Origin: Rhodobiaceae bacterium
GTDB lineage: Bacteria > Pseudomonadota > Alphaproteobacteria > Parvibaculales > Parvibaculaceae
NCBI GenBank assembly: GCA_003330885.1
Contig: CP030277.1
Span: forward strand, 682,001-746,000
DNA length: 64,000 nucleotides
Direction: 5' to 3'
Part shown: positions 55,646-60,426 of the stretch, piece by piece
How the letters are laid out: each line of letters starts with the position of its first letter
Position numbering within the stretch: position 1 is the stretch's first letter
The notes under the pieces: generated by a model
The model's database searches: none
What the model was told of the DNA's origin: nothing
The model's input: only the letters and a program-made list of their open reading frames with translations
Position numbers and translations under genes: made by a program

Positions 55646-56146
55646 TTGGCCCCCATATTCCTCTTGCAAAGGGACCCATCGCCGCCGACGAGACCCAATC
55701 TCTTATCTTTCGGTCAGATGTCTCCAGGCTGGTCCAGGAGGAGCATAGAAGGCAGCTTTCCTGCGGTCCCGTGTCCTTAACCCACTGACTCAATAGGGAA
55801 TTTCCCTGTGTCAGCTGCTCAAGGGACGGGCGGAACCTGATCGCCGCCTTATGTCCGGTTGGTACCAGATGCAGTGTTTTTCATCTGAGCCGACACAAAC
55901 TGTGGTGGTCTGAGCAGGGGTCGTCAAGCACTTGTGTCGAATGGCGTACGGGCCTCGAAATATGTGGGGCGAGGGCGTTCGGTGAAGAATATCTTCGCTG
56001 AAGGATTCGCGAATCGACCCTTTCCACGTGCTCTGGTTACTAATCAGAAGGGTTTACCGCGTAAAAGAAATGGGCAGGAATGCTTGGTCTTCTTGGTAAA
56101 CGCCCAGCGAGTGACCGCCTGCAGGAGACACGGGGTTATTTTGGAC
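55646..56146. promoter_or_regulatory. 501-bp nrdJ/response-regulator intergenic region with palindromes
   Basis: No gene is supported here; an open frame on the plus strand extends the downstream receiver protein but is non-homologous. Palindrome 1 is CTGAC...AGGGAA-T-TTCCCT...GTCAG (55785-55814), about 140 bp upstream of nrdJ. Palindrome 2 is GATTCGCGAATC (56004-56015), holding two GANTC (CcrM-type) sites. No cobalamin riboswitch consensus was recognised. Confidence 0.4.
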
Positions 56147-56695
56147 ATGCAAACCATCGCGGCAAAGCATAGCAACGCCTACGGGCGCGAGCTCAGTACG
56201 CTCGATGTATTGGTGGTGGATGACAATTTCCACATGCGCCGGCTTGTCCACACAATCCTGGAGGCGTTTGACGTCAAGATTATCCGCGAAGCAACAGATG
56301 GCACCGAGGCGTTGGCGGAGATTAAGATCCGTCAGCCGGATCTCATCATCAGCGATTGGGAAATGAAGCCGATGGACGGCTGTTCCTTTCTCGAGGTTTT
56401 GCGGAAAGCCGACAACAAGCCAGCTTGCTTCATTCCGGTCATCATGTTGACGGCACACGGCCGTCCGAGATTAATCCGTCAGGCATTTGAAGCTGGCGCC
56501 AGTCAATTTCTCGTCAAGCCGTTGACCCCTGCAAACCTTCTGCACCGGGTCGACTGGATACTTGCTGATAAACGTCCTTTCTTCGAAGAAGAGGGGCAGA
56601 TGCGCCAGCAGCTGACATTGAAGCTTCCAAAAGCAGCCGTTGCAGTGGCCGAACAAAAAGTGGCTGCAGGCGATGCCTGGGACCTGGATCTCTAA
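56147..56695 (+). CDS. Single-domain response regulator
   Basis: A 182-residue receiver-domain protein. Acidic pocket VLVVDDNFHMRRL, phosphorylation site ISDWEMKPMDG, conserved Thr in MLTAHGR, and Lys in FLVKPLTPANL. A C-terminal extension (about 140-182), rich in K and A, is not a known output domain. The start at 56147 is at the first Met before the receiver fold. No histidine kinase is adjacent. It overlaps the convergent apbE gene by 4 bp at the stops. Confidence 0.85.
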   Translation: MQTIAAKHSNAYGRELSTLDVLVVDDNFHMRRLVHTILEAFDVKIIREATDGTEALAEIKIRQPDLIISDWEMKPMDGCSFLEVLRKADNKPACFIPVIMLTAHGRPRLIRQAFEAGASQFLVKPLTPANLLHRVDWILADKRPFFEEEGQMRQQLTLKLPKAAVAVAEQKVAAGDAWDLDL

Positions 56696-57723
56696 AGCAC
56701 GAGATCGCCCCATCCTTCCGTGGTCACAAAACGTCCATCGGAAAGGGTAAAACGGGCCGCCACACTATCAAATTTACCAACCAACTCTTGCGCTTGAGGC
56801 AATGGCAATAGGTACAAAGCTGTTGAGAGGCCGTCAGCCAGCGTCGCCGTGGGAGCAGCGACGGTTACGCTCGAATAGTAGGCCGCACTTTTGCCTGTCC
56901 CAGGGTCAATAAGGTGATGGCCCTCGCGAAACTTGTGTCCAGATCCCGCCGACGTTGCAAGGGCACCCCCTCTAAGCTGAACCACGTTACTGAGGCGCCA
57001 GGCGGCGTTTGGGTCCCGGAGCCCAATCTGCCAGGCAGTCCCGTCTGCTTTTGGACCAAGGGCTCTGAACTCGCCGAGATTAATCAGCGTGTGGCGGGCA
57101 CCGGCATCTCGCAACAGTTCTGCAATATGGTCAGTTACGATCCCCTGAGCAATTCCGTTTAACGTGAGAGACATCCCATCAGGCAAAGAGATCTGACGGT
57201 CTGACACCTCCACTCTGTCAAAACCCAGAGAATCCTGAGCCGCTACGAAATTTGCTTTTGTCGTCTGATTGTTCGCTGATTGCTGTGATTGAGCATCGTA
57301 AAACTCCCACAAACGCTGGACAGACGGATCAAAGACTCCGCCAGACTGATCGTGTAGACGGCCGCAAACCGCCAAAGCATCTATCAGTTCGGGGGGGGCG
57401 GCCGCGCAGCTGCCTTTCCTGTTTAGACAGGAGAGTGCCGAAAGGGGCTGATGCAGGCTGAAGATTCCCTCCAACCGATGGAGCTCCATCACTGCAAGGT
57501 CGGTCAATCGTGCGCTTTCTGTCGCCGTGAAACCATCCAGTGTAACTGAGACATCACCGCCCAGAGCGACCCCGTTCCAAGTGTGAGGGATGGTCGATTT
57601 GCCGTGCACGGGCAAGGGTAGCGTCGCAGCTGAGGCAAAAAGAACAAGGCACCTGCGGCGAGACATTGCCGGAGCTTGCGTTGATGCGTGCCCAGCCGGC
57701 GCAATTTGGGCTCGGTTTTTCAT
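56692..57723 (-). CDS. apbE: FAD:protein FMN transferase
   Basis: Covalently attaches FMN to threonine or serine of target proteins outside the cytoplasm. The 343 residues start with a twin-arginine-like signal region (MSRRRCLVLFASAATLP near 20-36), then DVSVTLDG, LSALSCLNRKG, SLTLNGIAQGIVTDHIAELL near 185-204, and HHLIDPGTGKSA, where the ApbE Mg/FAD motifs sit. A natural partner (the FMN-binding protein at 59167-59691) lies 1.4 kb away on the opposite strand, divergently arranged. Confidence 0.93.
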   Translation of the reverse strand: MKNRAQIAPAGHASTQAPAMSRRRCLVLFASAATLPLPVHGKSTIPHTWNGVALGGDVSVTLDGFTATESARLTDLAVMELHRLEGIFSLHQPLSALSCLNRKGSCAAAPPELIDALAVCGRLHDQSGGVFDPSVQRLWEFYDAQSQQSANNQTTKANFVAAQDSLGFDRVEVSDRQISLPDGMSLTLNGIAQGIVTDHIAELLRDAGARHTLINLGEFRALGPKADGTAWQIGLRDPNAAWRLSNVVQLRGGALATSAGSGHKFREGHHLIDPGTGKSAAYYSSVTVAAPTATLADGLSTALYLLPLPQAQELVGKFDSVAARFTLSDGRFVTTEGWGDLVL

Positions 57724-57744
57724 GATGCAGAATTAGCACATATT

Positions 57745-57773
57745 TTCACTAATGCGAAGCACTCTCATAAAAA
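57745..57773 (+). promoter_or_regulatory. Candidate porin promoter
   Basis: TTCACT (57745-57750), a 17-bp spacer and TAAAAA (57768-57773) in the apbE/porin divergent gap. It would give a ~75-nt leader carrying two hairpins. Confidence 0.35.
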
Positions 57774-57793
57774 TGTTGAAAATGACTCGCAGA

Positions 57794-57850
57794 AGCGCCA
57801 TTGGGTGGGCGCTGAAAGCCCCTCTACCCATAGATATCCGTAGAGGGGGG
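57794..57850 (+). promoter_or_regulatory. Porin leader: hairpin sequestering the ribosome-binding site
   Basis: Hairpin 1: AGCGCC (57794-57799) / GGCGCT (57808-57813). Hairpin 2: CCCCTCTAC (57819-57827) / GTAGAGGGG (57840-57848) with a 12-nt loop; its right arm is the ribosome-binding site just before the ATG at 57853. An alternative fold pairs TGGGT (57802-57806) with ACCCA (57826-57830) and GGGC with GCCC, freeing that site while breaking both hairpins. This is a possible translational switch; no ligand is implied. Confidence 0.45.
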
Positions 57851-57852
57851 AA

Positions 57853-59094
57853 ATGGGATCGAAAATGCATATGAATAGAATTATCAGAACTGGGGTGCTT
57901 GGCATGAGCGTGGCGCTTCTGTCAGCGCCCGCATTCGCGGATGATCTGCCAAGTCGCGAAGAGATGTGGCAGATGATCCAGGCCCAACAGGCCCAGATCA
58001 ACCAGCTGACCTCCAAGCTTGAAGATACGGAAGAGAAAGTTGAAGCAACCGGCGAAGTGGTTGAAGAAATCGCCTCGAACGGGGGTGGTTCGTCAGAACC
58101 TGGCTGGTGGCAGCGGACCTCGCTCGGCGGGTACGGTGAGCTTCACTACAATGGCGGCGACAAAGACGAAGTCGACTTTCACCGGTTTGTCCTTTTCATC
58201 GCGCACGAGTTCACAGACAACGTTCGCTTTTTTTCGGAGATTGAACTGGAGCATGCGCTCGCAGGAGAAGGTCAACCAGGCGAAGTTGAGCTAGAACAGG
58301 CATTTCTAGAGTTCGACATCGCCGAGTTCCACTCTTTGACCGCAGGTGTGCAACTCATCCCTGTCGGCATTCTCAATGAAAAGCACGAGCCACCGACTTT
58401 TTATGGCGTTGAGCGCAATGAAGTCGAAAAGAACATCATTCCAACCACATGGTGGGAAGCGGGTGTGGGCGCACACGGTCAGTTGACCAACGGCTTTGGC
58501 TATAATGTGATGTATCATTCAGGATTGCAGGTTCCCACGACTGGGGCGAATGCATTCAAGATCCGCAACGGCCGCCAAAAGGTCGCTGAGGCGCGCGCAG
58601 CCGATGGGGCTTTCACCGGTCGGGTGCAGTGGACAGGCATGCCCGGTTTGGAAGTTGGTGTGACAGCACAGCACCAATTTGACGTGACGCAAGGTACAGC
58701 AGAAGAAACACCAGCGACTCTATTGGAGGCACATGTTGATGCACTAATGGCGTTTGGCCCTGGTCAGGTTGGGTTCCGCGCTTTGGCGGCATTCTGGGAT
58801 CTGGACAGTAACGCTGCAGCTGCCGTCGGTCGCGACGAGCAATATGGATGGTATGTAGAACCGTCATACCGCTTTGCCACCGACATTGGTGACCTTGGCT
58901 TCTTTGTTCAGTATGCGGAATGGGATAACAATGGAGGGGACAACACCGACTCCACATTCTCCCAAACGCGGTTCGGCGCAAATTTCTGGCCGACTCCAGA
59001 CACGGTGCTCAAAGCTGACTATCAAATTGATAGTGCACCAGCCGGAGGCACGGAAGACAATCGCGTCAATCTTGGCGTCGGATTCCAGTTCTAA
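57853..59094 (+). CDS. Outer-membrane porin, phosphate-selective-porin-like
   Basis: A 413-residue porin. Signal peptide near 1-29 (SVALLSAPAFA), then a short coiled-coil segment (MIQAQQAQINQLTSKLEDTEEKVEATGEVVEEIA, about 41-75), then a beta-barrel ending LGVGFQF with the C-terminal phenylalanine typical of outer-membrane barrels. It resembles the OprO/OprP-type family. Its real solute is not known. ATG codons at 57865 and 57871 are alternative starts. Flanked by apbE, an FMN-binding protein and a PepSY protein. Confidence 0.8.
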   Translation: MGSKMHMNRIIRTGVLGMSVALLSAPAFADDLPSREEMWQMIQAQQAQINQLTSKLEDTEEKVEATGEVVEEIASNGGGSSEPGWWQRTSLGGYGELHYNGGDKDEVDFHRFVLFIAHEFTDNVRFFSEIELEHALAGEGQPGEVELEQAFLEFDIAEFHSLTAGVQLIPVGILNEKHEPPTFYGVERNEVEKNIIPTTWWEAGVGAHGQLTNGFGYNVMYHSGLQVPTTGANAFKIRNGRQKVAEARAADGAFTGRVQWTGMPGLEVGVTAQHQFDVTQGTAEETPATLLEAHVDALMAFGPGQVGFRALAAFWDLDSNAAAAVGRDEQYGWYVEPSYRFATDIGDLGFFVQYAEWDNNGGDNTDSTFSQTRFGANFWPTPDTVLKADYQIDSAPAGGTEDNRVNLGVGFQF

Positions 59095-59119
59095 ATTTGG
59101 GCGCTATCGCGTAAGAACG

Positions 59120-59150
59120 AACAGGGCGTCGCTCCGGCGCCCTGTTTCTA
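59120..59150 (+). terminator. Intrinsic terminator/attenuator between porin and FMN-binding genes
   Basis: AACAGGGCG (59120-59128) / CGCCCTGTT (59138-59146) with a 9-nt loop, followed by TCTATTT. It lies between the porin stop and the FMN-binding gene, so the porin could be made in excess of the redox proteins. Confidence 0.65.
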
Positions 59151-59166
59151 TTTGGCTGAGATCGGC

Positions 59167-59691
59167 ATGCTCAAAAAATCACTCATTGTTCCATTGATGC
59201 TGCTTATTGCTATGACTGCGCCAGCTCGCGCGGTCGACGTCTTTATGGAACCTGATGTGTTTCTCTCCGAGGTGTTTGGGACCCAAGCGCCGGAGCCCTC
59301 ATTCCTGTGGCTGAAGGGTGACCTTAAGGCAGAGATGCAGGAGATCCTCGGCCGGAAGCCAGGCGGCCTGCGGATGCGCTATTGGCAGGATTCTGAACGC
59401 ACTGTTTGGATCTTGGAGGAAATTGGCAAAACGCAACCGATTACGACGGGCATTTCAATCAAGGCGAGCGCAATTGAACGCGTGCAGGTTCTCATCTATC
59501 GGGAAAGTCATGGCTGGGAAGTGCGTTACCCTTTCTTTACCGATCAGTTTCGCGGCATGACATTGGAAGAAGATCGGACCCTTTCAAGACAGGTTGATGG
59601 AATTTCCGGAGCAACCTTGTCAGTGCGGGCGCTCACAAAGCTTGCACGCCTTGCTCTGCGTCTTGACGCCATCGTGCGGGAGGAGACCTGA
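59167..59691 (+). CDS. Exported FMN-binding domain protein (flavinylation target)
   Basis: A 174-residue protein with a signal peptide (LKKSLIVPLMLLIAMTAPARA). The C-terminal FMN-binding domain carries the flavinylation motif DGISGATLSV (S-G-A-T), where ApbE attaches FMN to the threonine. The domain is similar to those of NqrC/RnfG and free-standing redox proteins. Preceded by a terminator and followed closely by the PepSY gene, 4 bp apart. Confidence 0.85.
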   Translation: MLKKSLIVPLMLLIAMTAPARAVDVFMEPDVFLSEVFGTQAPEPSFLWLKGDLKAEMQEILGRKPGGLRMRYWQDSERTVWILEEIGKTQPITTGISIKASAIERVQVLIYRESHGWEVRYPFFTDQFRGMTLEEDRTLSRQVDGISGATLSVRALTKLARLALRLDAIVREET

Positions 59692-59694
59692 TCC

Positions 59695-60426
59695 ATGCCG
59701 AAGGTAAGATGGGTACGTATTTGGCACCGGCGTCTTGGACTTACCGCTGCCGCATTTGTCCTTCTCCTAAGCGTCACAGGACTCCTGCTAAACCACGCTA
59801 GTTCCCTGGACCTTGATCATACCAAAATTGAAAGTCCCTGGATACTTGATTGGTATGGCATCGCAGGGGTTGACGACGCGGCCCGCGCTTTTGAATTGGG
59901 TGATCTGACTGTTAGCTGGGCCGGAGGGTGGCTTTTTGTTGGGGAGGCGCCGTTGATCGGTGGCGTCCGAGCGCTGCAGGGAGCCGTGGCTCTTGAAGAA
60001 TTGATCGTACTCGCAACGCCACGGGAGATTGTCCTGGCGACTAAAGATGGTGAATTGGTTGAGCGGTTTCTGCCGGTAGCATTCGCCGCAGAAATCACGA
60101 CCATCGGTTTTGCAGAAGGACGTGTGGTGGCGCGGGCAGGAGATAACCTCTTCGCAGCGAACGGGGACGCATCTGTTTGGAAACCCATTGAGACGTCCTG
60201 GGATGCCGTTTCATGGGCGTTGGATACACCAATTCCACCCGAATATGTCCCAGCGATGAATGCTCACCTCCGCGGCGAGGGTCTTCCTATCTACCGAATT
60301 ATCCTAGACCTTCATTCCGGCAAATTTTTCGGTGATCTAGGCGTGTGGGTGATGGATGGCGCCGCCGTTTTGCTGCTGATACTCAGTATTTCAGGCATCT
60401 GGATCTGGTGGCCCAGAGCATCTTAG
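59695..60426 (+). CDS. PepSY-domain membrane protein
   Basis: A 243-residue membrane protein of the PepSY-TM type. Span 1 near 13-32 (LGLTAAAFVLLLSVTGLLLNH) with an HxxxG-like WHRRLGL in front; a periplasmic middle (about 35-215); span 2 near 217-238 and WWPR at the end. Membrane PepSY proteins such as FoxB/PiuB act in ferric-siderophore or flavin redox. The histidines HRRLG, LNH and LHSGK could serve as ligands. Likely electron-transfer partner of the FMN-binding protein; inference. Confidence 0.8.
   Translation: MPKVRWVRIWHRRLGLTAAAFVLLLSVTGLLLNHASSLDLDHTKIESPWILDWYGIAGVDDAARAFELGDLTVSWAGGWLFVGEAPLIGGVRALQGAVALEELIVLATPREIVLATKDGELVERFLPVAFAAEITTIGFAEGRVVARAGDNLFAANGDASVWKPIETSWDAVSWALDTPIPPEYVPAMNAHLRGEGLPIYRIILDLHSGKFFGDLGVWVMDGAAVLLLILSISGIWIWWPRAS

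Follow-up and report, generated by a model that had tools for sequence, protein, structure and literature searches.

A co-inherited porin, FMN_bind protein and PepSY_TM protein under predicted Fur control: a probable iron-acquisition module in a Rhodobiaceae genome

Positions 56692 to 60426 of the window, by which we mean the entire 64,000-nucleotide stretch of DNA analyzed, carry four genes with two Fur-type sites among them. On the minus strand, apbE, encoding an FAD:protein FMN transferase (56692..57723; PF02424, E=4e-53), is divergent from a plus-strand cassette comprising a porin of OprO/OprP fold with 16 strands, a signal peptide and an N-terminal coiled coil (57853..59094), an exported FMN_bind protein with an NqrC-like fold (59167..59691; PF04205, 30.5 bits against a cut-off of 22) and a PepSY_TM protein with two spans (59695..60426; PF03929, E=3e-11, more exactly 3.2e-11; PF16357, 2.5e-8). 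Between apbE and the porin gene lies a Fur-type box, AATGCGAAGCACTCTCATA (57751..57769; 17.7 bits by position weight matrix, PWM), in tandem with a second, weaker Fur-type site, GTTGAAAATGACTCGCAGA (57775..57793; 8.3 bits). All four genes are real and lie where the preliminary description had placed them, as established by Pfam for three and by the fold model for the porin. The next gene 3' of the PepSY_TM gene is NDUFA12 (Pfam), which is not part of the cassette and belongs elsewhere. At the opposite end, a gene for a response-regulator receiver protein (56144-56695) converges on apbE, a position kept in loci L002-L004.

Taken alone, the window porin has no Pfam match, and single-sequence PDB searches with it, as with the FMN_bind protein, returned none. 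Its relatives are more readily placed, 47 of 62 matching Porin_O_P (PF07396) at E<=0.01, and an AlphaFold model (pLDDT 82.6) shows 16 strands behind an N-terminal helix. The top structural matches of that model, over about 300 residues, are the OprP/OprO structures 2o4v (Z 27.5), 4rjx (27.2) and 4rjw (27.1), in agreement with its initial identification as an OprO-like, coiled-coil porin. No match to the Plug domain typical of TonB-dependent receptors was found by Pfam in the porin or its relatives. Of the two candidate start codons, 57853 and the ATG at 57865, the latter is the more likely; in L002 the former is replaced by TTG, and both near relatives keep the codon at 57865. Strands 5 and 6 are joined by a nearly invariant loop, a constriction-loop motif (PVGIxNETHEPxTFYGVERNxVExxIIPxTW), and the conserved ionizable residues likely to line the inner face, as assigned from strand alternation rather than coordinates, comprise 12 acidic, 5 His and 7 basic positions. 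Within the limits of that face assignment, the lumen and the invariant loop would fit a channel that selects a metal complex.

The FMN_bind protein (model pLDDT 92.5), whose closest structure is NqrC, carries the [ST]GA[ST] flavinylation motif at S152-G-A-T155, as had been noted at the outset, and the GAT within it is invariant in 81/81 FMN_bind proteins. A search of the whole genome recovered a single FMN_bind protein, at the cassette, and a single ApbE, the product of the adjoining apbE. The FMN_bind protein would be expected to bear covalent FMN attached by ApbE.

The PepSY_TM protein (243 aa) has two hydrophobic spans and, as first described, histidines near them; these three are near-invariant, His11 being kept in 80/80 sequences, His34 in 78 and His207 in 79, and they are the putative ligands of a haem. 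By profile search its C-terminal span matches FoxB (7abw, E=8.5e-7). A natural 118-aa form in genome G237 (L107:951-1307, minus strand) retains both spans and the His motifs and dispenses with the periplasmic domain. This suggests that the spans, with their putative haem, are the working part of the PepSY protein, the periplasmic role having passed to the flavoprotein.

The association of these genes is conserved well beyond the window. Using the FMN_bind protein as sole bait, we collected 81 loci, in 74 of which a homologous porin lies upstream of the FMN_bind gene and in 80 of which a PepSY gene follows it. Hosts of the porin-FMN_bind-PepSY triad include alpha-, gamma- and zetaproteobacteria and Verrucomicrobiota; marine, sediment or groundwater genomes are numerous among them, and the genes outside the triad vary by lineage. 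Three of the seven porin-less loci (L021, L065, L067) start at or near a contig edge. The remaining four are of Oceanobacter type, with a gene for a MauG/MbnH-type di-haem protein in the porin's place (L031:4734-5999, L055:4713-5969, L068:4731-6011, L078:4740-5984), likewise under Fur-type boxes. At L071 the porin is accompanied by a gene of this di-haem cluster. In a bait-free survey of 289 alphaproteobacterial genomes, the porin and the FMN_bind protein had strong matches (E below 1e-50) in the identical 14, all of which also encode ApbE and PepSY, the latter in one case as a short form. In a separate Pseudomonadota sample, FMN_bind adjoins a strong porin in 10 of 11 genomes. Genome G500, a candidate exception with porin and no FMN_bind protein, was rejected, its contig stopping 2 bases past the porin match; apart from such a contig end, every porin of the cassette subfamily at E<1e-50 in the genome samples was accompanied by the flavoprotein. 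Because porin and FMN_bind protein co-occur in the same genomes and adjoin one another, the porin belongs to the system and is not a chance neighbor. These counts answer the question, raised in the preliminary description, of whether porin and redox genes travel together in relatives, and gene co-occurrence likewise sustains its view of a periplasmic redox module that is self-contained and to which the porin integrally belongs.

The distribution shows some further irregularities. Close relatives of the source organism, from the same genus and family (G009, G242), are without the cassette, and the sole FMN_bind protein of G242 is a distant one, with the plug domain of a TonB-dependent receptor encoded about 1.3 kb away. 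A divergent porin-FMN_bind-ApbE cluster with no obvious PepSY gene occurs within the same class, in a genome of 7.3 Mb (L109:930-4062).

Unseeded motif discovery by expectation-maximization (EM) on 66 non-redundant cassette upstream regions yielded the palindrome AATGAGAATcATTcTCATT, a classical Fur box, estimated to be present in about 86% of them, with a log-likelihood of 410 as against 61-65 in shuffled sets. Scores of at least 15 bits with the PWM are reached by 76% of cassette upstreams versus 1.1% of tiles drawn from the same loci as controls. The box at 57751-57769 ranks top of the 64 kb, 7 bits ahead, and still ranks first (15.7 bits) when alphaproteobacteria are left out of the training of the matrix. 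The mean best score of shuffled 64 kb windows is 14.4 bits, similar to that of the window's imperfect box, so that its weight lies in position and conservation; it is conserved in L002-L006. The second site (57775-57793) is fifth best in the window and was also recovered as TGCGAGTCATTTTCA on the minus strand. Some loci, for example L047, L053, L054, L060 and L062, have no detectable Fur box. A pattern search for Fur sites across the whole of G000 was set aside, since it gave 14 sites against 7 in a reversed control. From its sequence, we predict that the cassette is under Fur control, and the box at 57751-57769, sited between apbE and the porin gene, could serve both.

The RNA switch originally suspected upstream of the porin lacks support and gives way to the predicted Fur control, the conserved upstream element being the Fur-type box. 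Rfam searches of the upstream region gave nothing at gathering score and, at a permissive threshold, only mir-5885 (E=0.74), not a credible match; fold z-scores were modest (-2.0 and -1.3, with window and relatives spanning -0.8 to -2.0), and the hairpins have no clear equivalent in L004-L006. Two GC-rich hairpins are present at 57794-57850 of the window, the second covering the likely ribosome-binding site, and they recur loosely in L002-L003 only; a hairpin over the ribosome-binding region may operate within the genus.

Neighboring genes in other lineages also point to iron. In about 11 gammaproteobacterial loci, PepSY is followed by the genes of an ABC transporter, namely solute-binding protein, permease and ATPase, and the single binding protein compared with the PDB is of FbpA type (6g7n, E=1.7e-96; 2pt1, "Iron transport protein", E=3.2e-95), a family mostly described as ferric binders. 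Bacterioferritin adjoins the cassette in 7 loci. FbpA is encoded in 9 of the 14 alphaproteobacterial cassette genomes; the homologue in the window genome lies away from the cassette, at about 3.51 Mb. FeoB was not found in 12 of these 14 genomes, the window genome among them, and ferrous iron would consequently need another importer; this lack, and the fact that the FbpA found in these genomes belongs to a family of ferric binders, weigh against a reductive route. The metal chelate first proposed as substrate can be narrowed to iron by the Fur boxes and ferric-transport neighbors. On the other hand, the MauG/MbnH family is linked to copper-protein maturation, and its occupation of the porin's place in Oceanobacter counts, by virtue of that link, against iron.

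Overall, we consider it probable that the locus encodes an iron-acquisition module that is regulated by Fur and independent of TonB, the porin admitting a ferric chelate for reduction by a PepSY haem protein together with a protein bearing covalent FMN. The basis of this reading is computed: gene families, co-inheritance, Fur-type boxes, iron-gene neighbors and folds. From these we infer the two cofactors, the direction of electron flow, the substrate and, for the source organism, the importer. Under iron starvation, Fur would leave the divergent promoters, and a small ferric chelate could then enter the periplasm through the porin, with its conserved, apparently Glu/His-rich lumen and invariant constriction loop. 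The two-span PepSY protein, probably a dimer with haem on its conserved histidines, would be fed with electrons by the quinol pool or the cytosol; from it they would move to the ApbE-attached FMN of the FMN_bind protein. Reduction of the chelate by this flavoprotein would free iron for an inner-membrane importer, which in many lineages may be the adjacent FbpABC. A bolder version, which we regard as rather doubtful, envisages a widespread TonB-independent reductive importer whose flavoprotein, docked under the coiled-coil porin, reduces the ferric chelate at the pore exit, rendering uptake directional without TonB energy.

The same genes can be read in other ways. The iron-starvation cassette might run its electrons in reverse, the flavoprotein/PepSY pair oxidizing Fe(II) admitted by the porin and delivering Fe(III) to FbpA; this would suit the adjoining FbpA and the general lack of FeoB, and the imelysin, DHOR and MauG-type neighbors of some loci recall oxidative iron uptake. 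Protein-bound flavins, however, are usually reductants. Moreover, the characterized PepSY_TM proteins reduce ferrisiderophores (PMC13038864), and we consider the reverse direction unlikely. That literature is also the source of a possible copper branch of the PepSY_TM proteins, exemplified by CrpH of Bordetella from a copper-starvation operon (PMC13038864). A CrpH-like periplasmic copper reductase and importer supporting haem-copper oxidases, for which the MbnH-type protein at the Oceanobacter loci would speak, is nevertheless given a slim chance here, in view of the Fur boxes upstream, those of Oceanobacter included, and of neighbors that are a ferric transporter and bacterioferritin.

Two further possibilities concern the porin itself. 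Its pairing with the flavoprotein is the most strictly kept element of the set, surviving with ApbE at L109 where PepSY is not evident, and the constriction loop is nearly invariant; both would suit a flavoprotein in or on the porin that fed extracellular acceptors, as an outer-membrane electron conduit comparable to porin-cytochrome complexes. A single small flavin domain cannot, however, reach across the membrane, and Fur control with ferric ABC genes indicates nutrition rather than respiration, so that such a conduit has little probability. Flavinylation clusters are common (PMC8238504), and an ordinary PepSY-like example might have acquired a general porin alongside it by chance. This we hold to be highly improbable, being contradicted by the co-occurrence data, in which porin and FMN_bind protein share genomes and adjoin, with the one flavoprotein-less subfamily porin seen only at a contig end.

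Passage of iron across the Gram-negative outer membrane is usually attributed to TonB receptors. If the proposed iron-acquisition module is correct, Proteobacteria and Verrucomicrobiota would possess a further general iron route by way of a Fur-controlled porin and flavin-reductase set, and part of the orphan FMN_bind/ApbE proteins would gain a concrete role. A porin tied to TonB-independent iron entry, as here, may have a counterpart in the cyanobacterial iron-selective porins (Slr1908), which are not known to be flavin-linked. OprO and OprP (Porin_O_P) share the 16-strand fold of the window porin (Z 27), but the latter is only 12-14% identical to them, has a Fur-type box upstream and, as judged by strand alternation, seems to present conserved inward ionizable residues that lean to Glu, Asp and His rather than the phosphate-selective arginine ladder. 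With NqrC and RnfG, the FMN_bind protein has in common its fold and GAT site; it differs as a stand-alone, exported protein without Nqr/Rnf partners. Members of the FoxB family are periplasmic ferrisiderophore reductases (PMC13038864), which the PepSY protein resembles in its last span and in the conserved His near its spans; its architecture, however, is of about 240 aa and two spans, rather than the four spans, two PepSY domains and two bis-His haems per chain of FoxB.

The closest relationship is with the PepSY-like flavinylation clusters with iron and Fur links, some with TonB receptors, described by Meheust et al. in 2021 (PMC8238504), where ApbE is likewise encoded alongside a protein substrate for flavinylation and a PepSY protein of PF03929/PF16357; in the window both Pfam matches are above cut-off, beside FMN_bind and ApbE. 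The earlier suggestion of an undescribed system must be tempered to this extent, such clusters and their iron links having been known since that report; as to the porin, that word is absent from its main text, and we found no published description of the porin-FMN_bind-PepSY triad in the open-access literature. Whereas the known clusters typically contain DUF2271 and DUF4198, in some cases with a TonB receptor, the set described here contains FMN_bind and a dedicated porin. Hence it belongs with the PepSY-like flavinylation systems already known, as a variant distinguished by these two components.
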